From Microcaldota archaeon (GTDB taxonomy: Archaea; Micrarchaeota; Micrarchaeia; Micrarchaeales; CABMGC01), in NCBI GenBank assembly GCA_028866835.1, contig JAGWHJ010000006.1, positions 1 to 51,536 of the forward strand: a DNA stretch of 51,536 nt, given 5' to 3'. This document shows positions 1 to 32,051 of this stretch, piece by piece. Within the stretch, counting starts at the first letter, position 1, and each line of letters starts with the position of its first letter. Made by a program: the position numbers and the translations under genes. A model generated the notes under the pieces. The model saw only the letters and a program-made list of their open reading frames with translations, had not been told where the DNA came from and ran no database searches.

Positions 1-3
1 CAA

Positions 4-354
4 TCACTTTGCCTTTTTTATGGCAATGTCAGGCATGTAGTTTGCAAGGGAGACAAGATACAGGAGCCCAAGGAAGAGCAGGGCCACCGCAAAGGTAGAG
101 ATCTGGAACGATATGAGAACGACGAATATCAGGAACAGCAGGCCTATGCCCATGTAGAGCCTCTGCCTGTTGACGAACCTCGAGCGCAGCTTCTTGTAAT
201 CTGGATAGCATGCCTTGCATACGTCGAGAGCGTTCCCCTGCTCGTTGTGGGTGATGTTCCTCTTGAACCATCTCATTGTGTCTATCACGTAATCCTCCCG
301 CACGGGTATGCCCGCCTTGGCCTTGCCGCAGATTATGCAGTATTCCTTAGCCAT
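4..354 (-). CDS. Small zinc-ribbon membrane protein, last gene of T4SS-like operon
   Basis: A 116-residue protein of unknown function. Two CxxC knuckles (C6/C9 and C46/C49) suggest a small cytoplasmic zinc ribbon, followed by two closely spaced hydrophobic helices (about residues 67-105) and a short basic tail. It follows the preceding minus-strand gene with only 7 bases between, so it is probably co-transcribed with the VirB4-like ATPase cluster. The family was not recognised. A structural or assembly role at the membrane is only inferred from position. The ATG at 354 is the only sensible start. Confidence 0.75.
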   Translation of the reverse strand: MAKEYCIICGKAKAGIPVREDYVIDTMRWFKRNITHNEQGNALDVCKACYPDYKKLRSRFVNRQRLYMGIGLLFLIFVVLISFQISTFAVALLFLGLLYLVSLANYMPDIAIKKAK

Positions 355-361
355 GCGACCA

Positions 362-658
362 CTAATCTATGACCAGCTCGACCGCCTTCCCGAAGGCGTT
401 CCTTATCTTCTCCTGGTCCAGCGAATCGAATATGTTCGTTATCGAGATGTCGTCTATCCCTATCCTCCGCAGTACGTTCGTTATCTCCTTCTCGCGAAGC
501 CCGTACCCCTGCAGCATGCCTGCAAAGGCCACCGCGTTCACGTGCTTGTGGGTCTTGTCCATGTTGGTGAGTATCGCCTCGACGTTCTTGTCGCTGATGC
601 CGAACGAGCCGAGCATACGCTTGAGCTCAACCTTGCTTATTATGAAGGTTCCTGCCAT
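362..658 (-). CDS. Small helical protein next to VirB4-like ATPase
   Basis: A 98-residue, predicted all-helical soluble protein with no recognised family. It follows the ATPase gene by a few bases. The ATG at 658 is chosen over the in-frame TTG at 664 because an AGGGG Shine-Dalgarno-like stretch lies about 9 bases upstream of it. The sequence has short repeated units of the type LKRMLGSFGISDKNVEAIL and VLRRIGIDDISITNIF. These resemble the C-terminal tail of the ATPase encoded just upstream (NTLLKNGANRDSVIGFMRSL), so it may be an adaptor related to that tail. This similarity was judged by eye only. Confidence 0.7.
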   Translation of the reverse strand: MAGTFIISKVELKRMLGSFGISDKNVEAILTNMDKTHKHVNAVAFAGMLQGYGLREKEITNVLRRIGIDDISITNIFDSLDQEKIRNAFGKAVELVID

Positions 659-664
659 TGCCAA

Positions 665-2173
665 CTACCCCTTGACGTTGATGAACGTCCTGCTTATGAT
701 CTCGTCTGCGAGCCCGAGGCTCCTCATGAAGCCTATCACCGAATCGCGGTTCGCGCCGTTCTTGAGGAGCGTGTTCACCAGCTCCTTTATCTCCATCATC
801 CTGCTCCTCGCATCGAGCTCGGCGAAAGTGGCGTTTATCGTCGTTGCGGTTAAGTTGTTGCTCACGAGCTTCGAGCTGAGGTCTATTTTCTTGAAGTAGT
901 ACTCCTTGGTTATGTTGACGTCGCGCATCTCGTTCTCGGTGAGCAGGTCGGCCATAGTGATCGTGTACACGTCAAGCGGCACCTCCCCTATTATTCTCTC
1001 AAGCACGAAGACCGACGGGAACTTAACGGACGTCTGGAAGGAGAGCTCGATGGCGGCCTGGCCCACTCCGAACCTGCTTATCTCGCCCCTGATGAACTGC
1101 GAGAAGTTGAGCGACCCCTGGAGATAGTCCATGAACTTCTCGAACTTTATCTTCATCATTATGTTCGTGCCGACGTTGGAGAATATGGCCTCGTTGATGT
1201 CTGTCGGGTTCTGCGACGCCACTATCAGCCCGAACTGGTACTTCCTCCCCTCTCTTACTATGGTGACCGCGTCGCTCCTCTCGTCGCTCGCCACCTTCCA
1301 GGCCTCGTCGAGCACTATTATCGCCTTGAGCCCCTTGCTTGCGCTCCATCCCTCCATCCGCATCTTCTCCTTAGTTGTCTGGAGTATGAAGAGCGCTGCG
1401 AGTGCCCTGAACTTCTCGTCAGGAAGGCCGGAAAGGTTAATGTCGACAAGCCCTGACGAGAGCAGGACGCCTATGTCCACTGTGCTCTTCCTCGCGAAGT
1501 AGTCCTGCCCCTCCCTTGAGAACTGCCTGAGCCTGTAGACCGCATTCTCGAGCTCCGCAGGGTACTCATAAGTTCCTTCCTGCAGCTTCTCCTCAAGCAG
1601 CCTGGTAACATCCTTGAGCGTGGGCGCCTCCTTCCTCGGATCGGGCGCACCAGACAGGTTGAAGCCCGCGTTGAGGTACGACTGCTCGATGGCCTCCTCA
1701 GTGAGCCTGCGCTGGTCCGGGAAATCTGATATGTCCGTAAGGATCTCGAGCGCGGTCATTATCTGCTTTGAACGGTCAAGCGGCTTCATGCCGGAGAGGT
1801 CCATGAGGTTTATGTAGTCGCCCTTTCCCAGGGAGACCACCCTGCCGCCGCTCTGGGTCACCCATCCAAGGTATTCCCCCGCCCAGTCTATTATCAGCGC
1901 ATTGGTGTTCCATATGTAGCTGGCCCTTATCAGGAACGTCTTCACGAAAAAGCTCTTTCCCGAGCCTGTTATCCCCACAACCGATATGTGCGGGTTTGTG
2001 AGCGTGGCGAACGTCCACGTGAAGGGGACGGAGAAACGCCTCGTTATGCCTATGAATATCGATTCCGTCGGGTCGTTGAGCAGGTACTCGTACGGAGGCT
2101 CAGGCGGCCTCCCAAGGCATGCCCTCTTGGCCAGTTCATTGCTCATTACGCTCTGCACTTTTATTAGTCCCAT
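665..2173 (-). CDS. VirB4/HerA-type secretion ATPase
   Basis: A 502-residue P-loop ATPase of the VirB4/TraC/HerA-FtsK group, expected to power substrate or pilin movement at the inner face of the membrane. Visible motifs are a lead-in typical of VirB4 C-terminal domains (NPHISVV), Walker A GITGSGKS (residues 67-74), LIIDWAGEY just after it (about 93-101), Walker B IIVLDEAW (285-292), and IVASQNPTDI (about 317-326), the conserved glutamine-bearing segment of this family. The usual VirB4 N-terminal domain is absent; it seems to be encoded separately by the two genes upstream. The last 100 residues form a helical tail. Start: AGAGGTGA lies just before ATG 2173, overlapping the upstream stop region. 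Homologs elsewhere are annotated DUF87 or type IV secretion ATPase; a HerA DNA-repair role is less likely given the neighbours. Confidence 0.85.
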   Translation of the reverse strand: MGLIKVQSVMSNELAKRACLGRPPEPPYEYLLNDPTESIFIGITRRFSVPFTWTFATLTNPHISVVGITGSGKSFFVKTFLIRASYIWNTNALIIDWAGEYLGWVTQSGGRVVSLGKGDYINLMDLSGMKPLDRSKQIMTALEILTDISDFPDQRRLTEEAIEQSYLNAGFNLSGAPDPRKEAPTLKDVTRLLEEKLQEGTYEYPAELENAVYRLRQFSREGQDYFARKSTVDIGVLLSSGLVDINLSGLPDEKFRALAALFILQTTKEKMRMEGWSASKGLKAIIVLDEAWKVASDERSDAVTIVREGRKYQFGLIVASQNPTDINEAIFSNVGTNIMMKIKFEKFMDYLQGSLNFSQFIRGEISRFGVGQAAIELSFQTSVKFPSVFVLERIIGEVPLDVYTITMADLLTENEMRDVNITKEYYFKKIDLSSKLVSNNLTATTINATFAELDARSRMMEIKELVNTLLKNGANRDSVIGFMRSLGLADEIISRTFINVKG

Positions 2174-2177
2174 CTCT

Positions 2178-3002
2178 TCACCTCTGCGTCTGGAATGTGG
2201 CCTTGAGCTGCTCTACGTCCGGCAGCGAGTAGTTGAGCTTGTGCAGCAGGTACATCTCCCTGCCCACCACTCTGACTATGCTGAGGTCAAAGCCGTTGAA
2301 TATCGTCTGTATCTTGTCGAGCTGTGTCGTCAGCGCGTCCATCGCGTCCTTCTCGCTGACGCCTACGGCAGTGGATTCGAAGTACAGCATCGTGTCTATG
2401 GGGCGCTCGCCGCCTCCAAGCCTGTCTATCCTCGCCTGGACGACGTTCATGCGCCTCTCTATGTCGCGCAGCGTCATGGGGTTTGCGTTGCTGTTGCTCA
2501 CCTCCTTCGAGTACTGGAACTGCAGGAGGCCTCGCTTCCCCTCAAGCTCATCCCTGTACTTCTGTATCTCCTGCGATGTCGATACGATGTTGAACTTGAA
2601 AGGGAAATTCAGGTTCATGACGGCGCGCTCCCACTTGTCAGGCGCAGCCGTTATGTTCGCCTTCTCCTCCTCGGAGATCTCCTCCTGCGCGAAGACGTAG
2701 TTGTATATGTTCGCGGTCAGGTACCCTGTGGCGTAGTATATGCCGCCGCTGAACTTTATGATTGCGTCCTCAGACGGCGGTATGGAATAGTCCTTGCCTG
2801 GTATTATCGTTATCCTTGCGATCTTCGTGAATATGGGAAAGACGAGGAAGTCCGCGAAATATATCACAAGTATCAGGACCATGCCCAAGATGGCTATGAT
2901 CACCACCCCCAGCTCGAGGAAGCCGGATTCTGGGGCGCCTATCAGCACTAGCGCCCCTGAAATGAGCGTTACCCCGATATATATCAATGCCTCGTTGTCC
3001 AT
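2178..3002 (-). CDS. VirB3/VirB4-N-terminal-like membrane protein, copy 1
   Basis: A 274-residue protein with two N-terminal transmembrane helices (about residues 5-22 and 29-52) and a cytoplasmic domain of about 200 residues. The cytoplasmic part has the layout of the N-terminal domain of VirB4-family ATPases: a strand with a GG turn (IIKFSGGIYYATGY), an amphipathic stretch WERAVMNLNFPFKFNI, a YRDEL helix, a middle strand PIDTMLYFES, and a final helix-loop ending MYLLHKLNYSLP. That domain is missing from the ATPase encoded immediately downstream (4 bases away). I infer a split VirB3-VirB4 arrangement. The assignment rests on pattern recognition, not a profile search. ATG 3002 directly follows the upstream stop. 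Confidence 0.6.
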   Translation of the reverse strand: MDNEALIYIGVTLISGALVLIGAPESGFLELGVVIIAILGMVLILVIYFADFLVFPIFTKIARITIIPGKDYSIPPSEDAIIKFSGGIYYATGYLTANIYNYVFAQEEISEEEKANITAAPDKWERAVMNLNFPFKFNIVSTSQEIQKYRDELEGKRGLLQFQYSKEVSNSNANPMTLRDIERRMNVVQARIDRLGGGERPIDTMLYFESTAVGVSEKDAMDALTTQLDKIQTIFNGFDLSIVRVVGREMYLLHKLNYSLPDVEQLKATFQTQR

Positions 3003-3005
3003 TGC

Positions 3006-3848
3006 TCACACCGTAGTCTGTTCCGAAGACTTGTACTGCATCATCTCGTCCACCGTCCTGCTCGGTATCATGTGGTCCGGCTCCAGCATCACGAGTATCT
3101 CCTCCTCCCTGGCAACAGAGGCCGTTATCCCGAGTACCGAGCTTATTCCGGCAGCTATCTCCTCCGCCCTTATTACCGCGATGTTTATGGCCTCCTCCTC
3201 AGTGCCGCCGACTGCGCTGACCATCGCGTAGGCCGCTAGCGTCTGCGACCTGGTCTTGTTGACGCTGTCGTAGAGGTTGTGCCACATCGTTACCTCTCCG
3301 TTTATGCGCTCCGTCTTGTCCGCAGGGGTTCCAGGCTGGTTGCTCAACTGGTTGTACACCTCCTGCACCTGGTTCAGCTTGTCGGTTATCTTCCTTATGT
3401 AGTCGTCCTTGTTTATTATGTACAGCTGCACGGAGAGCTTCATCGGCGTCTTGCTGATGGTCGCGACCTTCGCGAAGAGCGACGCGAACTCGAACTTGTC
3501 CTCGGGCTGCATCTCCGAAGCAGATTCGTATATCGGTATCCTGACGAAGGCGCTGGCATAGACGAGCGTCTCCCCCCTCACGACAACCGCATTGCCGTTC
3601 GGAGCCATGTAGAACGGGTCGTCGCTGCTCACCACTGCCGTGCCCTTCTTCATGTGCACGAATGAGAGCACGAGGTAGTCATAATACTTGACGGAAAATG
3701 CAAGGATTGCGAAGATGACAGCAACCAGCGCAAAGACGAAGGACCCGAAAGGACCCACGGCGTACCCGATTATCAACGGCAGTATCGCGAAGACAAGCGA
3801 GACAAGGACAAGGATACCAAAGGTAAACATCTTTGTGTTCTTGTCCAT
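3006..3848 (-). CDS. VirB3/VirB4-N-terminal-like membrane protein, copy 2
   Basis: A 280-residue protein with two or three N-terminal membrane helices (residues about 7-30 and 34-62) and a cytoplasmic domain of the same general plan as the next gene. The plan is a strand region with MAPNGNAVVVRGETLVYASA, a segment TPMKLSVQLYIINKDDYI, a long helical middle, and a final LSSVLG/REEEILVMLEPD stretch. It is the first gene of the transcription unit running to position 4. A TATA element lies at 3888-3897, giving a predicted leader of about 18 bases. Its likely partner is the VirB4-like ATPase two genes downstream. Function is inferred from architecture and context; the two copies may form a heteromeric scaffold. 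Confidence 0.55.
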   Translation of the reverse strand: MDKNTKMFTFGILVLVSLVFAILPLIIGYAVGPFGSFVFALVAVIFAILAFSVKYYDYLVLSFVHMKKGTAVVSSDDPFYMAPNGNAVVVRGETLVYASAFVRIPIYESASEMQPEDKFEFASLFAKVATISKTPMKLSVQLYIINKDDYIRKITDKLNQVQEVYNQLSNQPGTPADKTERINGEVTMWHNLYDSVNKTRSQTLAAYAMVSAVGGTEEEAINIAVIRAEEIAAGISSVLGITASVAREEEILVMLEPDHMIPSRTVDEMMQYKSSEQTTV

Positions 3849-3887
3849 CGGATCGCCAGTAAGACGATATACTATGTAAAGGAATAG

Positions 3888-3897
3888 ATTTATATTT
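3888..3897 (-). promoter_or_regulatory. TATA box for the ATPase sub-operon
   Basis: On the minus strand the sequence reads AAATATAAAT. Transcription would start near 3866, about 18 bases before ATG 3848. It separates the ATPase-side genes (3848 to 4) from the gene at 3930-5984, which has its own TATA element. Confidence 0.6.
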
Positions 3898-3929
3898 AGC
3901 TGTTTAGCCCTGGACGCTATGTGCCGGTG

Positions 3930-5984
3930 CTATACCAAGCCCTTGTCGCGCAGGTCCTGGACCCTCCTCCTTATCCTCTGGGTCTGCAGAGAGTTTAGGT
4001 ACTCAACCCTTGCCTTCCTTCCGGCCATTGCGATCTTCCCCGGCGTGAACGAGCTTGTGACATCCGCTTGAGGTGTGGGATTATCGCCGAAGTTATGTAT
4101 GGCATTCGACCTGAAGAAGCTGTTTGTGTGCGACTTCTCAATCCTGACACGGCCCGACTCTAGCACCTCTTTTCCAAGCTCATAATTATCTGGGTTTCCA
4201 AAGATCCTTGTATAAGCCCTGCGTTCATGCTCCTGTCTCCTCTGCTGGTCGAGGATATCTGTACGTATGTCATCAAGATGCTGCTCTACGTGCTCTCCCC
4301 TGAGCCTGTCCGCCCTTTCCATCCCCGCCCGCGAAGGCCCGAAGCTAGGCTTGTAAGCCCTTGCCCTTGTTGCGACCTGGCTTGCGTAATCTTTCATCGG
4401 CTCTGTCACGATGACCCTTCCGGCGGCCCTTGCCGTTGCCCTGAATCCCGTATCCGCGCCGCGCTCGGCCCTTATCTCCTCTCCCGCGCCTGCAAATGTC
4501 TGTATCATGGATCTTGCGCCGCCTACGGTAGCGTAGGCGAATGCATTGGTCTCCCTGCTGACACCTATCCTGTCGATGCCTGCGCCCCTTGCAGCGGCAA
4601 TGCCTCTGTCGAGTGCCCTCCTGAATGCGGAGTTGTCGCTGCTCTCGTTCCCCCTCTGCTCCCTGTAAGCGTTAACCCCTGCCCTTATGTTCTGCGGCGC
4701 ACTGTAAACCGCGTGAATGGCAGAGCCTGCAACCGTCCTTCTCAGCATGTCCGGCTCATGGCCCTTATTATAGGTGTGCTGCTCGTTCGCAGCCATGTAC
4801 GTCCTGTACTCCTTCCTCAGATCAGACTCGCTCATCTCGCCATTATGGAAGCTTTCTACTGCATTGCCGAGCCTTGTCGCGCTGTTAATCCTGGTATTTG
4901 CTCTCTCTATGAGCTGGTTTGCCGCATCTCTGCTACCGCCCATGACCTTCGCAAGCCTCCCCGGATCCCTGCTAGCTGCGCTTATATCACCTACATTATT
5001 GTACCCTGCTTCATTCAGGGCAGTGGTTAAGCGTTTGTTGACTCCTAGCGTTTCAACGTCTTGGGCTTCCATATGACTTCTTACGCCACTCTTCATGTTG
5101 ATTATCGGTTTAGTCTCTCCCATCACACGTTCTTTGAATGAAGAGTAGGTGGCCCAGTTCTTGAATATAGCCTTGGCATAGCCTCCTGCCGTCCTCTCCC
5201 CACCAGGCGTATCCATCCTGTACCTGTACGAACGCCAGAGCCTGCTGCCTATAGGATAGGCAGGAAACATCGGCGTTGTGAGCACGCGCCCGATCTTCAT
5301 GCCCGGTCCCGCAAGCTCGTTTGCCATTGAACTTTGATAACCACCGCCCTGTGTGCTCCTTCCAAGCTTTGAGAACTTGAAGGTTCCGTACAAAAGCGCG
5401 CCTTGCGGCACAACTACAGCTGCCGCAATCTTTGCATTCCTTGTAAACGTCCTGAACCCCTCCGAGTTTGCGGTCCTTCTAGCGAACCCGGTAGCCCTGC
5501 TGTAACCAGCACCTACTCGTCCAGCGGCACGCCTTGCAAGAACCCCCCCTCTGCTGGCGGTCACTCGGTTGACCACAGCACGCCCTCTGTTGAAGTTTAT
5601 CCTCCTTGGAGTAGCCATCGCCGTTGCGGCTCCCGCCGCCCCGGCTCTTCCCGCAGCCCCCGAAAAGATGCGTGCGCCTCCACGATTCCGCATTGCCATG
5701 CTCGCCCTCCTCTTGAGCCGTGCGCCTGCATTCATTCCCATCTTGCTTGAGAAAGGCAGCGCGTAGAAAGGCAGGGACAGCGCGGTCTTTCCAGTTATCG
5801 AGCCCTTCGCCCCTGTTCCTATCCCGAGCAGGGTTCCTATTCCGAAGAGGTTGAAGACGCTGAAGCCCCTCGTTGCGCCTGCAGCTGCCGCTATGAGAAT
5901 CAGGATGATGAATAACGGTATAAGGGCGTCTATCGATCCCAACGACAGAAGCGCGTACACGAGCAGGAACGTCGCCATCATCAT
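3930..5984 (-). CDS. Large basic membrane-anchored protein with helix-hairpin-helix segment
   Basis: A 684-residue protein. Residues 4-36 form one or two membrane helices. The rest is strongly basic, rich in Arg, Ala and Gly, and largely low complexity (about 85-185: repeated RR, GRAG and ATR patterns). Residues about 309-367 read like a Rad51/HhH-type DNA- or protein-binding motif (LNEAGYNNVGDISAA, then LAKVMGG, then ANQLIERA). The C-terminal 100 residues are charged and helical. Net positive charge plus HhH on a membrane anchor suggests a nucleic-acid contact on the cytoplasmic side of the T4SS-like machine, but this is inference. The start MMM at 5984 fits a TATA box at 6008-6017 and a near-leaderless transcript. 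No family recognised. Composition is atypical but GC is like the neighbours. Confidence 0.75.
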   Translation of the reverse strand: MMMATFLLVYALLSLGSIDALIPLFIILILIAAAAGATRGFSVFNLFGIGTLLGIGTGAKGSITGKTALSLPFYALPFSSKMGMNAGARLKRRASMAMRNRGGARIFSGAAGRAGAAGAATAMATPRRINFNRGRAVVNRVTASRGGVLARRAAGRVGAGYSRATGFARRTANSEGFRTFTRNAKIAAAVVVPQGALLYGTFKFSKLGRSTQGGGYQSSMANELAGPGMKIGRVLTTPMFPAYPIGSRLWRSYRYRMDTPGGERTAGGYAKAIFKNWATYSSFKERVMGETKPIINMKSGVRSHMEAQDVETLGVNKRLTTALNEAGYNNVGDISAASRDPGRLAKVMGGSRDAANQLIERANTRINSATRLGNAVESFHNGEMSESDLRKEYRTYMAANEQHTYNKGHEPDMLRRTVAGSAIHAVYSAPQNIRAGVNAYREQRGNESSDNSAFRRALDRGIAAARGAGIDRIGVSRETNAFAYATVGGARSMIQTFAGAGEEIRAERGADTGFRATARAAGRVIVTEPMKDYASQVATRARAYKPSFGPSRAGMERADRLRGEHVEQHLDDIRTDILDQQRRQEHERRAYTRIFGNPDNYELGKEVLESGRVRIEKSHTNSFFRSNAIHNFGDNPTPQADVTSSFTPGKIAMAGRKARVEYLNSLQTQRIRRRVQDLRDKGLV

Positions 5985-6007
5985 AATATTAGATAAAGCA
6001 GCTTCTC

Positions 6008-6017
6008 ATTTATATAC
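6008..6017 (-). promoter_or_regulatory. TATA box for the basic HhH protein
   Basis: Minus-strand GTATATAAAT is centred about 29 bases from ATG 5984, predicting a transcript starting within a few bases of the start codon. Confidence 0.65.
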
Positions 6018-6029
6018 TTGCCGAGATGA

Positions 6030-7106
6030 CTAAACAAGAGACCTCAGCCTTGACGACGTCCTTGCCATGCCCCCGATGAACTCGGCTATCTGTATGATGA
6101 ACGCGTACGTCAGCGCCACGATCAGCGTCGGGAAGAAGAGTATGGAGAGCCAGAACGTCCCGAACGTGGTCTGGACGTTGGTCAGCTGGCTCACGAGAGG
6201 TGAACCGGGGTTTATCGCGTCGGTGACTATCTGCTGGGTATTGCCATTGTACCTGTTGATAACTGCAGTGGAGGCCGCAAGTGTCGACGACACTGGAGAC
6301 GTGAAGTAATACGCTATCGAGAATAGTATGGGCATGATGAAGTAGAAGCCTATGGCGATGGCCATCAGCATGCCGCCCACGTGCCGCGTGGGTATGAACG
6401 CCCTGAATATTACCCCCGGTATCAGGAACGCCGGTATCGCAGCGTAGAGCATGAACAGCACAAGGTAGTACTGCACGTATACCGAGAAGAGGCCGTCGAA
6501 AAGGAAGACCATTATGCCGAAGCCGGGGTAGAAGAAGATGTAGTCCATTACCGCGGTGAATATCCCGAGGGCGTTCTCGCACTCGAGGGGCGTGCAGGTC
6601 GAGAGGCTGAAGGAGGCGTAGTACTTCGCCGTGCTCGTTGTTATGAAAAGGCTCGTGGCAAGGTTGCTGGTCGCGTTCAGCGTGTGGGCCATGTACGTCA
6701 GCGATGCATCGAACGGATCGAGGGAGCCTGCCGTGAGCCCGGGCAGCAGACCGAACATTATCGCCGCTATGAAAAGGAACATGAGGACTATTAGCGCGGT
6801 AGCTAGCGCCTCGTACATCTCCGCTACGCCGTACGTCCTGAGGCGCTCGTTCTTGAATGCTATGCCCGACATGAATATGATCACCGCTATGAGGAACGAG
6901 ACGGTTATCGAGGCTATTGCAACCGGCTCCCAGGCGCTCCAATTCGCGGCAACCGCAAGGTTTATGTGCGAGCAGTACCAGGGCGCGACCACCTCAACAA
7001 TCCCGGAAGGCGGGCTGCAGTACGTGGTGAGCGGCGACTGCGCGTACAGTATCGTAACTGCTACCGAGAGCACCGCCAGCGCTATGAGCTTGAATTTCAT
7101 GATCAT
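6030..7106 (-). CDS. VirB6-like polytopic membrane protein, paralog 6
   Basis: A protein of about 358 residues with an N-terminal signal-anchor ending near ILYAQS and about six further membrane helices. The membrane core carries IFRAFIPTRHVGGMLMAIA followed by GFYFIMP. The pattern R-(A/S)-F, then TR/VR, then GG, an LIA-type helix and a Pro recurs in its upstream neighbours. This topology is what VirB6/TrbL/CedA channel proteins look like. It is the last gene of a six-gene run; its start touches the stop of the previous gene. Start is ambiguous among GTG 7109, ATG 7106 and ATG 7100; an AGTGA before 7100 could be its ribosome site. An external loop holds Cys residues (TCTPLEC) that may form a disulfide. 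Confidence 0.7.
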   Translation of the reverse strand: MIMKFKLIALAVLSVAVTILYAQSPLTTYCSPPSGIVEVVAPWYCSHINLAVAANWSAWEPVAIASITVSFLIAVIIFMSGIAFKNERLRTYGVAEMYEALATALIVLMFLFIAAIMFGLLPGLTAGSLDPFDASLTYMAHTLNATSNLATSLFITTSTAKYYASFSLSTCTPLECENALGIFTAVMDYIFFYPGFGIMVFLFDGLFSVYVQYYLVLFMLYAAIPAFLIPGVIFRAFIPTRHVGGMLMAIAIGFYFIMPILFSIAYYFTSPVSSTLAASTAVINRYNGNTQQIVTDAINPGSPLVSQLTNVQTTFGTFWLSILFFPTLIVALTYAFIIQIAEFIGGMARTSSRLRSLV

Positions 7107-7108
7107 CA

Positions 7109-8239
7109 CTACAATATCCTTGTCAGGAGCGAGAGGAGGTCCATCTTCTCCCCAACAGCTTTCGAGAAGTCAACTATGAATGCATCCGCTATCACTAGGT
7201 TGATGAGCGGTATCAGCGTGAGGCCCAGGGCTATGAACCCGCTGTAGAGTATCGTCTCCCTGAAGGGCGCGAGGAAGACGGGAACAGCGGCCGGTATGCC
7301 TCCGGTAAGCAGGGCTACCGGTATCTTGATGAATTCCCCCGTGCTGAAGAAGTAGCCTACGACGTGCAGGCCGTTCCCGAAGAAGGTGCTGTATCCGTTT
7401 ATACCTATCTGCTGTATTGTAAAAGTGAGGAAGCCGTACGTTATCACCACCATCAGGGGGTAGACAAAGCCGATGCCCAATCCAAACGCTATCATCGCGC
7501 CCCCGAACGACCTCGTAACTCCGAATGCCCGTGCCACGAGCCCCAGTACCATGAACGTCGCGAAGAGCGGCAGCGCCGCATTTATGAGTATCTGCTGCAC
7601 GAAGGAGGCGATGACCAGGGTGAAGAAGCCCTGCATCAGCGGTACTATGTAGTGGTGTATGAGCTGTATGGGAAGCAGGCTTATCGAGAACGAGATCCCG
7701 GTTCCCATCACGCTGACGTCTCCAGTGGCTCCGGAGGCCACATGCACCGCAGGGAAGAAGGTCACCGCGGGGCTTGCGGAGAGCACTATCGATGTCCAGT
7801 AGACGTTGTTGCTGAAGCTGATCACGTCCTGGTTGAAGGTGTAGATGTCGCAGTCGGCGAGCCCGAAGAGGTTGTCCTGCGTTCCCGTGAGCAGCGATCC
7901 GCTCCCTCCAGGCGTGCACACCTGCGGCAGCAATCCTACTGAAGAAAGCAGCGGAGAAGGAGTCACCGTGCACAGTAGCGTCGCGAAGCTCATGAAGATG
8001 AGGACGAATATTATGTTGAGCAGGCCGTCGTATATCTTTACCTTCGCCCAGACCCTGATGTCGCTCCTTCCGGCAAGCGGGCTCAGCATATATATGAATG
8101 CCGCTACCACGATCACCGCCATCGTCGCCGTCAGGACTATGGGCATCCATACCGCGAATGGCGTCAGGAAGAAGCTGCCTATGTTGGTGGCGCATGCACC
8201 GAGCAGTATAAGGACCATCGACAGTGTCAACATGCTCAT
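7109..8239 (-). CDS. VirB6-like polytopic membrane protein, paralog 5
   Basis: A 376-residue protein with about seven hydrophobic helices. The shared core reads VARAFGVTRSFGGAMIAFG followed by IGFVYP. The extracytoplasmic loop after the second helix holds paired cysteines (VCTPGG and LADCDIYTF). Overlap of ATGA type with the upstream gene (8236-8239) and 1-base contact with the downstream gene show translational coupling. By family analogy it is a VirB6/TrbL-type inner-membrane channel subunit. The exact substrate is unknown. Confidence 0.7.
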   Translation of the reverse strand: MSMLTLSMVLILLGACATNIGSFFLTPFAVWMPIVLTATMAVIVVAAFIYMLSPLAGRSDIRVWAKVKIYDGLLNIIFVLIFMSFATLLCTVTPSPLLSSVGLLPQVCTPGGSGSLLTGTQDNLFGLADCDIYTFNQDVISFSNNVYWTSIVLSASPAVTFFPAVHVASGATGDVSVMGTGISFSISLLPIQLIHHYIVPLMQGFFTLVIASFVQQILINAALPLFATFMVLGLVARAFGVTRSFGGAMIAFGLGIGFVYPLMVVITYGFLTFTIQQIGINGYSTFFGNGLHVVGYFFSTGEFIKIPVALLTGGIPAAVPVFLAPFRETILYSGFIALGLTLIPLINLVIADAFIVDFSKAVGEKMDLLSLLTRIL

Positions 8240-9399
8240 ACCACCCTGCTGAATATCCTCCTTCCCTGCACGCTCGGCGCGCCCAGGATGCTTGCCAATT
8301 GTTCTACAATGTCATAAGATATAAGCAGCGCTATTATGAAGCCTATCAGCTGCAGCCCGATGTACGCCATCGCCTGCACGTAGTCCACCATGTTGTAGAA
8401 TGCGACCTGGCCCAGAGGCGTGGTGAGCGGCGACAGAATGTCGGTGAACGTCGCCACAGAGAGGAAGGTGTGGGTGTCGCACAGCCCTCCGTGGCTTGTT
8501 GCATAGGTCCTGCTCGTCGGGCTGCAGATGTACGAGCTTGGGGTGTAAGCAACGGTGAACGGGTACACCAGCGCGGGGAAGACTATGTAGAACGCTATGA
8601 ACAGGGCTATGAAGGAGCCTCCGGCGGCCCTGGTCCACGGGAATGACCTCAGCACTATCCCGGCGTAAAGGAAGATCGGGAACAGCGCGTAGATTATGAA
8701 CAGGGTTATTATGACGAAGATGCCGAACTCCATCCCCACGAGGAAGGAGGTCTGCTCCAGCCAGAAGACCTCCTGGTGCGCGGTGTACCCCCATAGCGGG
8801 TGCACGCCGACGCCGAAGCCCTCCGGTGCGAACGCGATGCTGAAAGATGTTATGACCTGGTTTATGAAAAGTCCCACGAAGACACCCAGCCAGTTCTCAA
8901 TGCTCTGCACTATTATGTAGCTCTGCAGGCTGCTGCATATGCTCTGGTAGAGGTTGCCTGTGCTCGCGAGGTTCGCCGCGTTCTGCGCGCCGGTTATCGC
9001 CGCTCCAGTGTTGAAGATTGAGCCTACGCTGGCAAGGAAGATTATTGCTGGCTGGAACAGGTCTATCCCGGATAGGATGACGACCAGGATTATGAGGTTC
9101 ATGAAGCTCTCGAATATCTCCGATTTCACGAAGGTCGTGAGCTTCTCTATGCCGAAGGCCGTCCCTATGGCATAGAGCATCCCCATAAGGGTGAGTATCG
9201 TTGTGATCACAAGCAGGCCCAGGCCTAACACGCCGCCCCACTGCGCGGGGTTCAGGCTGGCCGCCCCAAGGCTTCCACCTGTCGCTGTTCCGCTGAAGAG
9301 CGCAGAGCAGTCTATCACCTCGTTGCCGCTCGGGATGGCGTACGCAAGCTGCGTGCTAGCCAGAAGGGCGGCCATGAAGAGCAAGATCATAATTCTCAT
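8236..9399 (-). CDS. VirB6-like polytopic membrane protein, paralog 4
   Basis: A 387-residue protein with a clear signal peptide (residues 1-21, LASTQLAYA) and about six membrane helices. The shared core reads VLRSFPWTRAAGGSFIALF followed by FYIVFP. A large extracytoplasmic loop has several Cys residues (SSYICSPTSRTYAT, GGLCDTHTF). Start: the upstream gene's TAG runs straight into AGGTG, an ideal Shine-Dalgarno, 5 bases before ATG 9399. It is likely part of the same membrane complex as the five neighbours. Confidence 0.7.
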   Translation of the reverse strand: MRIMILLFMAALLASTQLAYAIPSGNEVIDCSALFSGTATGGSLGAASLNPAQWGGVLGLGLLVITTILTLMGMLYAIGTAFGIEKLTTFVKSEIFESFMNLIILVVILSGIDLFQPAIIFLASVGSIFNTGAAITGAQNAANLASTGNLYQSICSSLQSYIIVQSIENWLGVFVGLFINQVITSFSIAFAPEGFGVGVHPLWGYTAHQEVFWLEQTSFLVGMEFGIFVIITLFIIYALFPIFLYAGIVLRSFPWTRAAGGSFIALFIAFYIVFPALVYPFTVAYTPSSYICSPTSRTYATSHGGLCDTHTFLSVATFTDILSPLTTPLGQVAFYNMVDYVQAMAYIGLQLIGFIIALLISYDIVEQLASILGAPSVQGRRIFSRVV

Positions 9400-9407
9400 T
9401 ATTGCAC

Positions 9408-11048
9408 CTATAGGAACCTGCTCAGCCCGAGCAGCGTGGTCTCGCCTCCCAGAACTGATGAAAGCCCGGTCGTCGCGGAGACGAGTATCATCATGTCGAG
9501 TATCGGTATTATGAAGCCGGAAACGGCAAGCATGCCGTAGAGGTTCTCCATCGTTGTGTAAGTGTTTATTATGTAGTGCGGCCCGATGTCGTACGAGTTC
9601 ACGAGGCCGGTGTAGACCTCTGGTATGCCTGAATTGAAGTTCCTGTCGAGCAGCGCGTAGAATATCCTGAATAGGCTCTGTATGCCGCCGTTGAGCGGTA
9701 TCGTGTCATGGAACGTCAGGTCCAGCTCCATCGGCACGAGGTTGGGCCCGGGCCAGTACGAATAAAGGTTCGGTATGTCAGCAAGCCTCGGGAAGACATA
9801 GAAGTTTATGGTCTTCTTGACGTAGCAGTTCTGGCTGCTTGAGAAGCTCGTTCCTGAGCAGGCCGGTATATTCTTGTTGCCGCTCCAAGGGAAGCCCTGC
9901 GGTATTATGCCCTTGAAGATGTACGATGTGGGCAGCGAGGTCTCTTCCGTATAGCAGTAGACGCCGCTGAGCCCTGCGCCGCTGTGCGAGCTAGTCCACT
10001 GCACGGACCTGCCGCAGAGGGCGAGGGACGGCGTCTGCCCGGTCCCTATCGGCTGCAGGTTCTGCACGTTGCTGAGTGTATTGTACTGGAAGAGGATTAT
10101 CGTGGGATATACCAGCAGGCTGACCAGCACTATGGCTATCAGAAGCCCTCCTGCGCGCTGCGTGTACGAGAACGCCCTCAGCACTATGCCTGCTGCAAGC
10201 ACGTAGGGCCACATCAGGAGCATCATTATTATGATGACCAGCTGCATCATGTAGAGATAGAACATCAGGTTCATCTCCACGGTAACAGCGGGCGTTATGA
10301 GCCTTCCCTGCACGTACCCCGAGAAGTACCTGAAGGAAACCTGCGTGCTTTCAAGGAAGTCGCCGGTAGTCTCGGGCGGGCTCGGCAGCGGTATTGCGCA
10401 TTCGACCGGTATGCAGAAGGAATAGGTCACTACGTAGCTCCTAAGCCAGTAGACCATGCTCTCCCAGTCGTACATGTCGTTCATCTCGCGCAGCGACTGG
10501 TTCGTGAGGTTGTCCTCTATCATGTAGGTTGACGCAAGGCCGTAGTCGAGGTTCGTTGTCAGGCTCCCTCCGCCGCCTGCGGGAGCTATGACATCGGCGC
10601 ACAGGGTCTGCCCCGGCTCCGGTATGGGATTGCCGTTTACGGTAAGGGTCTTCCCGGCGTTAAGGAAGTCCACAGCAGGCCCGCCGCTGCCGCCATAGCC
10701 CAGCTGGTGGCACAGCGTCATGATGGTGCTTGGCGGAAGGAGTTGCGGTATAGTAAGCACCGTGCCGAAGTAGTTCAGCACCATCACCACCGCAACGAGT
10801 ATTATCAGCGTCCCCAGCACCTGCAGGAACTGCGATATGGCGCCGCTCTTGACCTTCTGGTTGTTGAGCAGCGCGCCTACCATATAGTAGACGCCGGCTA
10901 TAACAAAGCCAAGAGAGATGGCTCCTCCGACAACAGGAAGCCAGTTGTTAAATGCAGAATAGTTCGTGAGGAAGGACTGCGCGCCTGCGCCGCCGGCCAG
11001 CGCTAGGAACGCGACGACAGCTGCGTACAATGCAAACCTCTTGTTCAT
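9408..11048 (-). CDS. VirB6-like polytopic membrane protein, paralog 3 (large ectodomain)
   Basis: A 546-residue protein, the largest of the six paralogs. It has a signal peptide (about residues 1-24, ending GGAGAQS), two helices, an extracytoplasmic loop with several Cys, then the shared core VLRAFSYTQRAGGLLIAIV and a helix ending VYP. A second large ectodomain of about 200 residues with CYTEETS, IPACSGTS and NCYVKK follows. Extra ectodomain mass suggests the surface-facing or cell-contact part. Start: ATG 11048 is preferred to GTG 11057; GGAG lies 8 bases upstream and the previous stop ends two bases before. Function assigned from architecture. Confidence 0.68.
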   Translation of the reverse strand: MNKRFALYAAVVAFLALAGGAGAQSFLTNYSAFNNWLPVVGGAISLGFVIAGVYYMVGALLNNQKVKSGAISQFLQVLGTLIILVAVVMVLNYFGTVLTIPQLLPPSTIMTLCHQLGYGGSGGPAVDFLNAGKTLTVNGNPIPEPGQTLCADVIAPAGGGGSLTTNLDYGLASTYMIEDNLTNQSLREMNDMYDWESMVYWLRSYVVTYSFCIPVECAIPLPSPPETTGDFLESTQVSFRYFSGYVQGRLITPAVTVEMNLMFYLYMMQLVIIIMMLLMWPYVLAAGIVLRAFSYTQRAGGLLIAIVLVSLLVYPTIILFQYNTLSNVQNLQPIGTGQTPSLALCGRSVQWTSSHSGAGLSGVYCYTEETSLPTSYIFKGIIPQGFPWSGNKNIPACSGTSFSSSQNCYVKKTINFYVFPRLADIPNLYSYWPGPNLVPMELDLTFHDTIPLNGGIQSLFRIFYALLDRNFNSGIPEVYTGLVNSYDIGPHYIINTYTTMENLYGMLAVSGFIIPILDMMILVSATTGLSSVLGGETTLLGLSRFL

Positions 11049-11049
11049 C

Positions 11050-12255
11050 TCATGCACTCCATACCGGGCCTACGGCCATAAGCCTTGATATCGAGCCCAG
11101 CGCCTTTGCCAGGCCCGTCGCGAAACCTATCGTTATAGCGGTGTCGAGCGCGAGCAGGACTATCGTCTCGAAAAGGTACTGCGCAAGGTCTCCGGCGAAC
11201 CTGACCATCACGCTCGGAAGCGTCGCAAGCGTGGAAAGGCCCTGGTTGATGGCGTTGAAGCCGCCGCCGAGGCCCCCGAGGGCGCCGCCGAAGAACGTGA
11301 GCGGTATGCCCACGTTGAACGGCCCTCCTACGTGAACTGTGCTGCTCGCGAACATCGAGCTTATCGGCAGGTTGTTGAGGCTGTAAGGCGTCAGGAAGTT
11401 GTAGTTTGGATTGCAGAACATGTCCGAGGGGGAGAGGCACTGCGCGTACATCCAGTTTATCATCAGGTTGTCGAAAAGTATCGTTAGCGGGAAGATGAAG
11501 TACATCGCGATCGCAAGAGCCAGGAACGAATCAGACGCTTCCCTCAGCCTAGGGCCTGCGAACGGGATGCTGCGCATGACCAGAGAGACAGGCACCATGA
11601 CAGTGAGCGCAAGGGTAGCTATGAGCGGGAGCAGGGCGTAGTAGATGAAGACCACTCCGAAGGTAACCGCGATCAGCGCGGAATATGTGGTGGTCAGCGT
11701 GCTGGAGAAGCCGAAGAATATCCCTACGAGGCTTGCGCCGAGCTCGAAGCCGACGAAAGGCGTGCTCGCGAAGTTGTTGAACACAGTCTCGAGCTCATCC
11801 ATCACGTTGCCCCAGAACGTCAGCGCCACCGATTCCGAGTATATCTCGGTGAACAGGGCCGTGCTCTTCTGGAACAGCAGCTGGCTCAGGTATATCTGCG
11901 AGTACTGCATGGGATTCTGGTATCCCACCACGGACATCGTCATCTGCTGCCCGAGCTGGCATGTGAAGAGGGCGAATGCCACGAGTATGAGTATTATGAT
12001 TATGCTGACTATGGCCTGTATCATCTCGTACCTTGCGGCGCCCCTGAGCCTCTCCCTCCACAGGGTTGGGAAGAGGCTGGCCATCGCGTAGATGAAACCG
12101 CCTATGACGATGACCATCGTCACCACGAGCGTGTTTATGTTTATCCATGCGTTTTGATTAAGACCACCGAAGGTGCACGCGCATACCGTGCTGATCGTGC
12201 CTGTGGTGCACGTGGGCGGCCCGGACTGGAACAAGAATGGTATGAGCTCGAACAT
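11050..12255 (-). CDS. VirB6-like polytopic membrane protein, paralog 2
   Basis: A protein of about 401 residues. An upstream in-frame extension to 12345 is rejected because it would overlap the preceding gene; ATG 12255 comes 5 bases after that gene's TGA. Helices alternate with Cys-containing loops (TCTTGTISTVCACTF near the N terminus). The core is a variant, LVMRSIPFAGPRLREASDS then ALAIAMYFIFP, keeping R-S-x-P-F and the final Pro but losing GG. This makes it the most divergent of the six. It is probably a distinct subunit of the same channel. Confidence 0.68.
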   Translation of the reverse strand: MFELIPFLFQSGPPTCTTGTISTVCACTFGGLNQNAWININTLVVTMVIVIGGFIYAMASLFPTLWRERLRGAARYEMIQAIVSIIIILILVAFALFTCQLGQQMTMSVVGYQNPMQYSQIYLSQLLFQKSTALFTEIYSESVALTFWGNVMDELETVFNNFASTPFVGFELGASLVGIFFGFSSTLTTTYSALIAVTFGVVFIYYALLPLIATLALTVMVPVSLVMRSIPFAGPRLREASDSFLALAIAMYFIFPLTILFDNLMINWMYAQCLSPSDMFCNPNYNFLTPYSLNNLPISSMFASSTVHVGGPFNVGIPLTFFGGALGGLGGGFNAINQGLSTLATLPSVMVRFAGDLAQYLFETIVLLALDTAITIGFATGLAKALGSISRLMAVGPVWSA

Positions 12256-12260
12256 GCCTA

Positions 12261-13466
12261 TCACGTAGCAAGCTTCAGCTTGCCTCCAAGCTGCAGCCTT
12301 ATGGAGCCTCCAAGGGACTTTGCAAGGCTGTCTGTTATCGACCATATGATGAGCAGGTCCAGCACGTAGAGCAGGAGCTGCATTATTATGAACACGCCGT
12401 AGTTGAGCATGTAGTTGATGTAGGTGGAGAGGGTGCCGAAGAGCGTCTCCCAGGCGAAGTAGACGGCCATGCCGTTGTTGGGTATCAGCGCAAAGAGGTC
12501 CTTTATCTGGTTATTGAGGAAGCCGCAGAGGAAGTTGCCGCTGCATATCGTCAGGCCCGGCGAATGCCCGAGCGTCCATTCCGGCAGCGGGATGTCCTGC
12601 TGCATCAGCGTTATTATCGGGTAATCGAGCAGCGAGAGCACAGCGGGATAGATAAGCGCGAACGCAACGCCTATCGCTATGAGAGTGCCGCCCACCCCCC
12701 TCACGAACGGGAATGCCCGGAACACCAGCCCGAGGGGTATGAAGAAGCTGAGGCCGACAGCCATCAGCGATGGAAGCAGAAGAAGCTGCGCAAGCGTCAT
12801 CATTGTCACCGGGAACAGAAGGAACTGGATGAAGTCGTTGAGTATGGACTGGTAGAATGCGACGATGAAGTTTCCTGTGTCTAGCATGAGGTTCTGGTAG
12901 GGCCCGAACTGCACCCCGAACGTGAAGGCGCCTATGTAAACGGGCAGCGGCACGAAGTAGCCCACAACAAGCGATTTCATGAAGCCGATGCCTAGGAACA
13001 TGTCGCCCACGAGCGTCCATGTGCCGAAGAGGTAGCTGCAGACGCCGCCAAGGTAGCCCTCTGAGGTGAAGAGCAGCCCGCCAAGATACTGCGTGAGCTG
13101 CGATGCCCCGGGCTCTGGGGTGGGATTTGACTGCAGGAGGTAGGCGATGTTGCTCACAAAGAGCATGGAGCCGTATATGCCAACGATGAGCAGTATGGAT
13201 TTCGCCAGCTCCCAGTACTCGTTCTGCAGCCACTGCCTTAGGCCTAGGTGCGGGAAGATCCTGGAGATCATGTAGCCTATTGCAATGACGTCGAACGATA
13301 TCGTCAGCGCCAGCGCCGCGACTCCGATGCCTACCAGAGGTATGTCGGGAAGGGTGCCTGCCGTTATCGTGCTCAATGGCTGGCAGTCGGGAAGGCTTAT
13401 GGCGAATGCCGGGCTGCTCAGAAATAACAACCCAAACAGGACAGCAGCTAAGACGGCAAGGCGCAT
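12261..13466 (-). CDS. VirB6-like polytopic membrane protein, paralog 1 (first gene of operon)
   Basis: A 401-residue protein with signal peptide (residues 1-23) and about seven membrane helices. The shared core reads LVFRAFPFVRGVGGTLIAI followed by ALIYP. Ectodomain cysteines occur (LTICSGNFLCGF). It opens the six-gene run. A strong TATA at 13487-13497 lies exactly 26 bases from ATG 13466, so the message is predicted to be leaderless. Established for VirB6/TrbL/CedA: polytopic inner-membrane proteins forming the translocation channel or pilus base. Assignment here is by topology and neighbours. Confidence 0.7.
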   Translation of the reverse strand: MRLAVLAAVLFGLLFLSSPAFAISLPDCQPLSTITAGTLPDIPLVGIGVAALALTISFDVIAIGYMISRIFPHLGLRQWLQNEYWELAKSILLIVGIYGSMLFVSNIAYLLQSNPTPEPGASQLTQYLGGLLFTSEGYLGGVCSYLFGTWTLVGDMFLGIGFMKSLVVGYFVPLPVYIGAFTFGVQFGPYQNLMLDTGNFIVAFYQSILNDFIQFLLFPVTMMTLAQLLLLPSLMAVGLSFFIPLGLVFRAFPFVRGVGGTLIAIGVAFALIYPAVLSLLDYPIITLMQQDIPLPEWTLGHSPGLTICSGNFLCGFLNNQIKDLFALIPNNGMAVYFAWETLFGTLSTYINYMLNYGVFIIMQLLLYVLDLLIIWSITDSLAKSLGGSIRLQLGGKLKLAT

Positions 13467-13486
13467 AAATCCTATTGGATACGCTA

Positions 13487-13497
13487 ATTTATATAAA
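13487..13497 (-). promoter_or_regulatory. TATA box for six-gene VirB6-like operon
   Basis: Minus-strand GTTTATATAAAT is centred near 13492, 26 bases upstream of ATG 13466. A textbook archaeal box A giving a leaderless transcript. No other good box is seen between this point and 6030. Confidence 0.75.
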
Positions 13498-13526
13498 CCA
13501 TTTATAAAAAAACGAGGAAGAAGCGG

Positions 13527-14270
13527 TCAGTGGCTCAGCAGCTTGAACCTTCTCGTGTAAGATTCAACGGCGAGTATGACAAAGTACGGCGTGATGAAAA
13601 GCGAGTTCACGACAAGCATTATGTACCTTGACCAGAATGTGCCTGTAGCGAATATTATGACAAGGTCTGCAAGCGAGATTATCACGAATGCCAGCACGAG
13701 CCAGAGCACGAAGTACTTCGGCTGTCCGACAACCAGCCTTATGCTCTCCTTTATGGAGCGCACTATGCTCTTGTTGTCTATGACTATGGCAGCAGGTGCG
13801 TAGAAGATGAGCGTGAAGATGATGAACTCTATGACAGGAGTAAGGAAGGCGCTCCCTCCGGAGATGTATCCCAAAAGATTGACCATGAGCACTATGAACA
13901 TCGCAGGAGCGAAGATTATGAATACCTTCCCAACGTACTTCTCTATGTCGTTGAACGCCCGGTTGCTTATGTTAACGTGCGTCTTCCTTGCCTTGACTAT
14001 GAGGCTTATCGCGACGAACGCGAAGCTCAGGAAGAGCATCGAGAAGATTGTAGACAGCGTTATTACGACCAGAGCTATGGCGCTTACGTTACCGTTGGAG
14101 AAGATGCTGGCGTTCCTGAGGAATATGGCGCCAGCGCTTATGTAGGTCGGGAGCGGCGCGAGCAGGGGTATCGCAAAGGCTATGACGAAGGAGATCGAGA
14201 AGAGCACTATCAGCTTCAGGTTCTCCCTGTACGTTTCATACGATTCCGCAAGTATGTTCGACAACAGCAC
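13527..14270 (-). CDS. Six-helix integral membrane protein
   Basis: A 247-residue protein with six hydrophobic helices and short loops, resembling the archaeal six-helix families often annotated as DUF membrane domains near secretion or glycosylation genes (DUF7847/DUF4013 type, by appearance only). N terminus LAESYETYRENLKLIVL and central KSIVRSIKESIRLVVGQPKYF are the typical amphipathic linkers of that group. Start is GTG 14270 or TTG 14264; GGAGAGGG lies just upstream and spacing favours the TTG slightly. It lies between the VirB2-like gene and the VirB6 run. A T-rich tract and its own TATA-like element precede it. Confidence 0.7.
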   Translation of the reverse strand: MLLSNILAESYETYRENLKLIVLFSISFVIAFAIPLLAPLPTYISAGAIFLRNASIFSNGNVSAIALVVITLSTIFSMLFLSFAFVAISLIVKARKTHVNISNRAFNDIEKYVGKVFIIFAPAMFIVLMVNLLGYISGGSAFLTPVIEFIIFTLIFYAPAAIVIDNKSIVRSIKESIRLVVGQPKYFVLWLVLAFVIISLADLVIIFATGTFWSRYIMLVVNSLFITPYFVILAVESYTRRFKLLSH

Positions 14271-14307
14271 ACCCTCTCCGCATCAACAACGTTCAACTAA
14301 CCTATAT

Positions 14308-14326
14308 TAAAAAGAAAAGGATAAAA
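14308..14326 (-). terminator. T-rich tract after VirB2-like gene
   Basis: On the minus strand the gap after the VirB2-like stop contains runs of five, four and five T residues, as in archaeal oligo-T terminators. The last run also merges into a TATA-like element (TTTTTAATATAGG) that could serve the downstream membrane protein. Confidence 0.45.
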
Positions 14327-14335
14327 ATCCCCTTC

Positions 14336-14734
14336 TCAGCAGGTTGTTGGGGAAACTCCAACTACCGAACCGCCGACGTCGCCGCTTATGATGCCTATCA
14401 GAGGCCCTGCAATCAGAACCAAGATGAGCCCCACGACGCCTCCCATGATCATGCCTAGCGACCATCCCTGCAGGTTACCTCTTATGTTGCCCGCAGCAGG
14501 GAGCATGTGCGCCACTGCATACAGCGTGCCTCCTAGAATGAATAGTATGACTGCTATCGTAGCGATTGCGCCCTTGATCGTGCTGCACACGCTAGCCAAA
14601 GGTGTGGTTATGTTTGTAGATGCCTGTGAAAATATCGGCATCGCTATTGCACCCAAGACTATGCTTGAGATGTATAGGTAGTATAATGCACTCCTCAAGT
14701 TCATCCATATCATGTTGTGGTTCTTCGCTTTCAT
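14336..14734 (-). CDS. VirB2/CedA1-like pilin subunit
   Basis: A 132-residue protein with an N-terminal signal-like helix (about residues 12-35, ending IFSQAS), a short polar segment with one Cys, then two hydrophobic helices joined by a small basic loop (AAGNIRGNLQGW). The second helix is Gly-rich (GMIMGGVVGLILVLIAGPLI). This two-helix hairpin with a positively charged cytoplasmic turn is the hallmark of VirB2/TrbC-type conjugative pilins and archaeal CedA1. Start: ATG 14734 is preferred to the longer frame reaching 14803, because the TATA at 14771-14779 puts transcription start near 14749 and AGAAGG sits 8 bases upstream of 14734. It has its own promoter, fitting a highly expressed structural subunit. 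Confidence 0.75.
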   Translation of the reverse strand: MKAKNHNMIWMNLRSALYYLYISSIVLGAIAMPIFSQASTNITTPLASVCSTIKGAIATIAVILFILGGTLYAVAHMLPAAGNIRGNLQGWSLGMIMGGVVGLILVLIAGPLIGIISGDVGGSVVGVSPTTC

Positions 14735-14770
14735 GTACATTACCTTCTCACTATCTCTATAGTATGGTTG

Positions 14771-14779
14771 ATTTAAATA
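14771..14779 (-). promoter_or_regulatory. TATA box for VirB2-like pilin
   Basis: Minus-strand TATTTAAAT; start of transcription predicted near 14749, about 15 bases before ATG 14734. This rules out the upstream in-frame start at 14803. Confidence 0.65.
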
Positions 14780-14931
14780 CCTTTCGTTGGGTTTAGGATG
14801 CAATTTGCGCTTTTAGGCATTTACGTCAAGCCACACCTACGACCAGCACGCTATATTACATACTAATAATGGAACGCGCACCATTTTCATATCCGGCAGG
14901 GGAATACTGGAGCGTTTTCCACCGCTAGGTA

Positions 14932-14939: not shown

Positions 14940-14969
14940 CTTAAACTTAACTAATTGATGCTGATAGAG

Positions 14970-16169: not shown

Positions 16170-16180
16170 GTGTAACTTTA

Positions 16181-17686: not shown

Positions 17687-17695
17687 GTGATTGAT

Positions 17696-18655: not shown

Positions 18656-18661
18656 GCGGGA

Positions 18662-18686
18662 AATCCCACATGCTTTAGCTATGGGA
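18662..18686 (+). repeat. Left-end hairpin of IS605-type element
   Basis: Arms ATCCCA (18662-18667) and TGGGAT (18681-18686) with a 13-base loop. It sits 6 bases after the upstream gene's stop, where TnpA-type transposases would bind single-stranded DNA. Confidence 0.6.
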
Positions 18687-18790
18687 TGAGAGCGAACCGC
18701 AGTCGCAATTATATGCAGATATGTATATATAAATTCATTGGCATAATAATGCTCATAGTGGCATTTATTTTATCGAGAGAGACGATTGTA

Positions 18791-20017: not shown

Positions 20018-20064
20018 ATGCAGAGGAAGCCCACACCGTTCACGGGTGGGAGGATGTCACCAGT
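19900..20064 (+). ncRNA. Candidate omega RNA (reRNA) of the TnpB element
   Basis: In IS605-type elements the TnpB guide RNA overlaps the 3' end of tnpB and runs to the right end, with the guide taken from flanking DNA. This stretch contains the tnpB 3' end and the strong right-end hairpin at 20030-20050. Boundaries are a guess based on family behaviour. Confidence 0.4.
20030..20050 (+). repeat. Right-end hairpin of IS605-type element
   Basis: A stem of eight pairs with one bulged A and loop TTCA (arms 20030-20038 and 20043-20050). Lies 13 bases past the tnpB stop and probably forms the scaffold-proximal stem of the omega RNA. Confidence 0.6.
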
Positions 20065-20083
20065 AATGTAGTATGTTGGTAGC

Positions 20084-21112: not shown

Positions 21113-21116
21113 TAAC

Positions 21117-25783: not shown

Positions 25784-25791
25784 AGTGATCC

Positions 25792-32047: not shown

Positions 32048-32051
32048 TAGA

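Follow-up and report, generated by a model that had tools for sequence, protein, structure and literature searches.

What kind of machine is encoded by the run of genes at one end of contig JAGWHJ010000006.1 (assembly GCA_028866835.1), and what does its gene content say about the channel of that machine? The window referred to throughout is this whole contig of 51,536 nucleotides, contig 40 of a 1.09 Mb assembly in 40 contigs. An earlier reading made from the letters only (the sequence-only reading) had proposed here an expanded relative of the crenarchaeal Ced system, belonging to the type IV secretion system (T4SS) superfamily. The view that we favour, with moderate confidence, is that of a domesticated Ced/Ted-like T4SS machine whose channel would be an obligate hetero-oligomer of six different VirB6/CedA-type subunits, and it comes mainly from a set of six sister genes that keep their number and order across a whole archaeal class. 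Genome size, archaeal gene content and the suggestion of the sequence-only reading are the grounds for placing the organism in DPANN/Micrarchaeota, and the small genomes and archaeal genes are compatible with a DPANN archaeon.

The gene cluster

The cluster runs from 14803 to 4 on the minus strand and consists of 14 co-directional genes, named here A to N. The whole set of open reading frames (ORFs) described before was recovered in its place, with one direction on the minus strand.

14336..14713, minus: A, VirB2/TrbC-like pilin, with a cleavable-looking signal peptide, two transmembrane (TM) helices and an invariant C-terminal cysteine; longest ORF to 14803
13527..14270, minus: B, conserved 7-TM neighbour, not VirB6-like; located in 15 of 20 relatives' loci
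12261..13466, minus: C, VirB6-like channel protein, array position 1; hhalign to D-H 98.5-99.5, positional clade in the tree
11050..12255, minus: D, VirB6-like, position 2; N-terminus the most pilin-like; longest ORF to 12345
9408..11057, minus: E, VirB6-like, position 3, often the longest; clade of 41/42 arrays
8236..9399, minus: F, VirB6-like, position 4; assigned from hhalign homology, array counts and tree
7109..8239, minus: G, VirB6-like, position 5; clade of 42/42 arrays
6030..7109, minus: H, VirB6-like, position 6; clade of 42/42 arrays with low support; AlphaFold2 model
3930..5984, minus: I, strongly basic protein (net +48) with an N-terminal hydrophobic anchor and a weak helix-hairpin-helix match (HHH_5, E 0.0012)
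3006..3848, minus: J, 2-TM protein, paralogue of K (hhalign 97.2)
2178..3002, minus: K, 2-TM protein with an alpha/beta domain, possible VirB3/VirB4-N analogue; adjoins the ATPase in nearly all loci, minimal machines included
665..2173, minus: L, VirB4-type ATPase that lacks the usual N-terminal domain; Pfam AAA_10, DUF87 and TraG P-loop, hhalign to VirB4
362..664, minus: M, small soluble protein, its place downstream of L kept within this family and this order
4..354, minus: N, protein of 116 aa that has a cysteine motif at its N-terminus, plus a membrane helix; adjoins L across the class

From the lengths of their orthologues, pilin A and protein D probably start about 90 bases after the start of the longest ORF (about 14713 and 12255). 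As the window is a whole contig, the operon is cut at base 1, just past N; in relatives it extends further, into genes for a coiled-coil/winged helix-turn-helix protein and for a protein that combines a single membrane anchor with a large second domain.

Six channel genes in a fixed order

Arrays of channel genes were located by a class-wide search with channel-protein profiles built from this family; 42 of them were checked ORF by ORF, and 15 more were counted from match coordinates and open-frame lengths. Exactly six channel genes were found in all 57 unbroken arrays, which come from 16 families, and fewer than six were seen only in arrays cut by contig ends or extract ends. In four genomes the profiles found nothing. 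The six genes of the window had been noted before, whereas the constancy of this number across the group is new here.

A second kind of locus, which we call the minimal machine, has a single channel gene. Among the genomes examined, those of the lineage of the window (families f1, f2 and f11) carry one six-gene array, usually accompanied by a minimal machine; in most other families two such arrays are present, often together with a single-gene locus, and one genome (G098) has only the latter. The minimal machine of the same genome as the window (G000, contig 31, L109:4979-8260) consists of overlapping genes for a pilin, a VirB6-like protein, a K-like protein and a 374-aa ATPase, a layout that recurs in L110 and L111.

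The order of the six genes is as constant as their number. In a tree of the 252 array members the position label requires 10 changes, against a mean of 161 and a minimum of 149 when labels are shuffled within arrays, in such a way that a single six-fold duplication, early and with number and order unchanged since, is the most likely history. Each of positions 5 and 6 forms one clade spanning the 42 arrays, with support of 0.84 and 0.33, respectively, and position 3 does so for 41, even though sequence identity between positions has fallen to about 20%. A profile-assignment test ranked the observed order first among 720 on the mean matrix (median rank 16 for single arrays), leaving position 4 unseparated. 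Adjacent array genes have a median gap of 0, and 84.5% of 200 pairs lie at 10 bp or less. Six sister genes fixed in this order suggest a channel of six different parts, and the conservation of all six suggests that each may be needed in one defined complex.

Identity of the channel proteins and of the pilin

The sequence-only reading had called six proteins of the cluster VirB6-like. Proteins C to H are indeed all homologous to each other (hhalign probability 96-99.5) and to the single-copy channel protein of the minimal pilin-VirB6-K-ATPase machine (99.6-100%). Gene B does not belong with them, since it gave no hhalign match to pilins or to the VirB6-like profile and showed weak DUF7847/BPSS1780 similarity. 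Support for the identity of C-H as VirB6/CedA-type channel proteins is indirect and comes from a pilin-like N-terminal hairpin, neighbourhood and topology: the pilin profile matched the N-terminal part of D with an hhalign probability of 89% (controls with other proteins, below 3%), a likeness also described for the Ced channel protein CedA and the pilin CedA1 (PMC9905601). Searches of Pfam, NCBIfam and PDB profiles with C-H returned chance matches only, and no VirB6-like match was found in pNOB8 or in a haloarchaeal plasmid.

The proposal of a VirB2-like pilin for gene A is supported by profile evidence. Pfam TrbC and T4SS_pilin each match 7 of 14 pilin orthologues (best E 4.5e-6), the window pilin alone lying under the Pfam curated cut-off (14.2 against 27.9 bits). 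When an archaeal-only pilin profile was run against all ORFs of seven plasmids, TrwL/VirB2 of R388 came first (5.5e-6), followed by a 112-aa protein of a Natrinema plasmid (9e-5). As a separate observation, a cysteine at the C-terminus or close to it is invariant in all 14 pilins (window 14336-14803 and its orthologues).

The ATPase and the two-helix proteins

Protein L carries a Walker A motif (GITGSGKS, residues 67-74) and a VirB4-style Walker B (LDEAWK), and matches AAA_10 (2.6e-12), DUF87 and the TraG P-loop in Pfam. By hhalign it matched monoderm conjugative VirB4 with 97.9% probability, while those same VirB4 proteins reached only 91.9% against VirB4 of R388. These data support the earlier call of a VirB4/HerA ATPase and, more narrowly, a VirB4-type enzyme.

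HerA was the top-scoring solved structure for L in a single-sequence search of the PDB, which together with the lack of a database family or significant fold match for C-H and K might suggest that this is no T4SS but a HerA-like ATPase driving some other membrane complex, for example in surface-layer export or cell-cell junctions. However, a top score for HerA is expected because HerA and VirB4 share a superfamily. The DEAW motif, the profile match to conjugative VirB4 (higher than that between accepted VirB4s), the VirB2-like pilin in the same operon, and the grouping of pilin, one channel gene, K-like gene and ATPase in the minimal machines make this explanation improbable.

Proteins J and K, read before as two VirB3/VirB4-N-like membrane proteins, are paralogues (hhalign 97.2), each with a pair of N-terminal helices followed by an alpha/beta domain (K model with a predicted local distance difference test score, pLDDT, of 80). 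The VirB3/VirB4-N label was not established: K reached a probability of 6% against VirB4-N in a test whose control gave 16%, Foldseek with the K model returned no significant match, and Pfam, NCBIfam and PDB profile searches with both proteins gave chance matches only. A role as VirB3/VirB4-N counterparts is still plausible because L lacks the N-terminal domain. K was found in loci across the class, nearly always beside the ATPase.

Conservation and chromosomal residence

A high-scoring match to ATPase L was found in nearly all of 60 related genomes, at 60-75% identity inside two families; over most of the remaining class the identity is about 50-58%. Gene order had been proposed as a check, and the order N-M-L-K-J-[I]-H-G-F-E-D-C-B is intact in 18 of 20 relatives' loci, B being undetected in some. 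The exceptions are a locus cut inside C (L036) and one with only N-M-L beside the ATPase and the six-gene array about 80 kb away (L050).

The absence of relaxase and VirD4 noted in the window, from which classic conjugation had been doubted, holds over 26 related genomes: none had relaxase PF03432, the one relaxase family searched, or VirD4 PF02534 above cut-off, and the controls were positive. No close relative of the cluster was found in plasmid collections (at best about 30% identity, to one portion of the ATPase only) or in phage collections (one record, 23% identity), and viral contigs gave no match. VirB2 and VirB4 parts are typical of mobile elements and would suit a degenerate conjugative plasmid or integrated element, but such an origin is highly improbable when almost every genome sampled from two families, and most of the class, gave a strong match to the ATPase. 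Given the near-universal ATPase, the lack of relatives in mobile collections and the lack of these conjugation genes, the cluster is a domesticated, resident chromosomal system and not a conjugative element.

The same lack of relaxase and VirD4 bears on the cargo. A machine of this kind could export proteins (effectors or adhesins) to a host instead of DNA, as proposed for nanohaloarchaea, which have VirB4 giants (PMC10266531), and as possible for epibiotic Patescibacteria, whose T4SS genes are essential (PMC12102498). The host-dependent life expected of the group would agree with this, as would the 962-1731-aa, mostly acidic proteins with lipobox-like starts that some arrays directly precede. 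On the other side, no effector or signal was identified, Ced, the archaeal parallel of tested function, moves DNA (PMC11868833), and a coupling protein, which was not found here, is also present in most T4SSs that secrete proteins (PMC12102498). We regard protein export as a serious possibility but a less than even one.

Comparison with known systems

The likeness to Ced of Sulfolobales and Ted of Thermoproteales is one of gene content and published descriptions. These systems are also chromosomal, domesticated and without relaxase, and combine a VirB2-like pilin, VirB6-like protein(s) and a VirB4-like ATPase. In Ced the VirB4-type N-terminal parts are split among proteins (CedB/CedD; PMC11868833), as may be the case here, with K and J apart from L. 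By contrast, CedA is single in Ced, with the paralogue CedE added in Saccharolobus, against exactly six channel paralogues in frozen order in this cluster. In one genome scan with the pNOB8 ATPase as query, matches were found only in bacteria of the Candidate Phyla Radiation (CPR).

The Rvh T4SS of Rickettsiales likewise has several VirB6-like genes, with conservation confined to a short core (PMC2653234), but there five copies are present in most Rickettsia, one being missing or split in some strains, whereas here there are six without exception in an archaeal cluster with no outer-membrane parts found. Patescibacteria (CPR) are streamlined, host-dependent lineages that also keep a chromosomal VirB4/VirB6/VirB2 system, tied to life on the host, although theirs is bacterial and derives from a monoderm conjugation class, and the parts of that report consulted describe no six-gene VirB6 arrays (PMC12102498). 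For nanohaloarchaea, protein delivery has been proposed (PMC10266531). The conjugative T4SS of R388 has VirB2 and VirB4 homologous to those of the cluster, but its VirB6 is a homopentamer from one gene, and it has relaxase, VirD4 and VirB8-11, none found in the archaeal cluster; its VirB3 is hexameric, and its VirB4 is a hexamer of dimers (PMC9259494).

The literature search, limited to open-access papers and with subscription papers and preprints outside its scope, turned up no account of a machine of this kind in Micrarchaeota-like archaea. We file it as a variant of the T4SS superfamily, neither a conjugation system nor a proven Ced.

The proposed machine

In the arrangement that we propose, the VirB2-like pilin, a ring of the VirB4-type ATPase and the membrane adaptors K and J would act with a channel or pilus base in which a homo-oligomer has given way to six different paralogous subunits, made by translationally coupled genes in fixed order. 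The ATPase ring, anchored to the membrane through K and J, would energise the assembly of the pilin filament and would also drive cargo through the C-H channel. This cargo would probably be macromolecular, with DNA or some other nucleic acid the most likely, and would cross the envelope where the cell touches a host or a neighbouring cell. Here we infer the membership of C-H, as VirB6/CedA-type subunits, in one complex, together with ring stoichiometry, cargo and direction.

Several results weigh against this arrangement. The AlphaFold2 model of H (pLDDT 80; predicted template modelling score, pTM, 0.70) retrieved TrwI/VirB6 in Foldseek at rank 7 only, with a non-significant E of 0.46. The C-H profile was negative against bacterial VirB6 (a seven-member monoderm set), although in these hhalign comparisons with single plasmid proteins and the monoderm VirB6/VirB4 set the positive controls for VirB6 and VirB4-N failed too. 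Outside this lineage the ATPase-K locus often lies apart from the six-gene arrays, their physical partnership being presumed. Finally, the VirB6-type proteins TrwI and DotA were solved as pentamers (PMC9259494, PMC12857230), and six is not the symmetry expected from them.

These pentamers, together with the five VirB6 paralogues of Rickettsia (PMC2653234), would also agree with the six paralogues not forming one channel, either as six separate homo-oligomers or as a pentamer of five with one accessory subunit, the latter being possible on the same grounds. Protein D could be the odd one, as it is short in many arrays, with its pilin-like N-terminus and an altered core motif. However, no array among the 57 has fewer than six genes, their order is identical and coupling is found at almost every junction, and we consider both of these readings less likely than not. 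For the single channel of six different subunits, the most specific form, one obligate hetero-hexamer with pseudo-six-fold symmetry matched to the six-fold VirB4 ring, is put forward only tentatively.

Neighbouring genes and other observations

Gene I was found in 6 of the 20 relatives' loci, between J and H in three and upstream of C in the other three, and no homologue was seen in most of the remaining loci. Large proteins of 962-1731 aa follow six-gene arrays of one type (L113, L114, L115, L118, L120, L122, L126 and L128, and L125 after one extra gene); these are mostly strongly acidic, with lipobox-like starts and often many cysteines near the N-terminus. Gene I had been considered as their counterpart, but its product is basic and this idea was dropped.

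Back to back with the pilin gene lies a divergent type IV pilus-like locus (14955-22109, plus strand), with genes for a coiled-coil/helix-turn-helix protein, a PilB-type ATPase, a Pro/Gln-rich protein and two TadC-like proteins. A TnpB-like RNA-guided nuclease gene sits inside it (18686-20017), with no TnpA partner noticed nearby. The pair of pilus locus and machine is comparable to Ups working with Ced; as a part of the machine the pilus locus is unsupported, having been detected beside it only in the closest relatives (L035, L038).

Further along, a run of proteins with pilin-like N-termini on the minus strand (23804-32531) may encode surface adhesins, three of them with laminin-G/concanavalin-like lectin domains (four domains in one of 1112 aa). 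Six tandem MinD/ParA-like ATPase genes, one minus and five plus, with a tRNA-Ile between two, occupy 40158-45060; one of the six was confirmed by Pfam, and MinD/ParA genes also accompany Ted loci. An apparent fusion, read from the sequence only, of a Nudix-like N-terminus to a uracil-DNA-glycosylase-like C-terminus (45078-46088) and an exosortase/archaeosortase-like protein (46058-47581; Pfam Exosortase_EpsH, 3.9e-10) complete the list.

Implications

A fixed six-gene set makes the symmetry and composition of a VirB6 channel a question that can be read from gene content, with five paralogues in Rickettsia and solved pentamers on one side and six genes in these archaea on the other, and the one-channel-gene and six-channel-gene machines of one genome provide a built-in comparison. 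If the hetero-hexamer is true, it would depart from the pentameric state of the VirB6-type proteins with solved structures, and would give secretion channels a counterpart to the MCM2-7 style of conversion from homo- to hetero-oligomer, fixed before the class radiated. In one major class of small archaea that probably depend on hosts, a T4SS/Ced-like machine forms a near-core gene set, with a parallel among bacteria in Patescibacteria, and it offers a testable candidate for how small archaea connect to their hosts or take up DNA.

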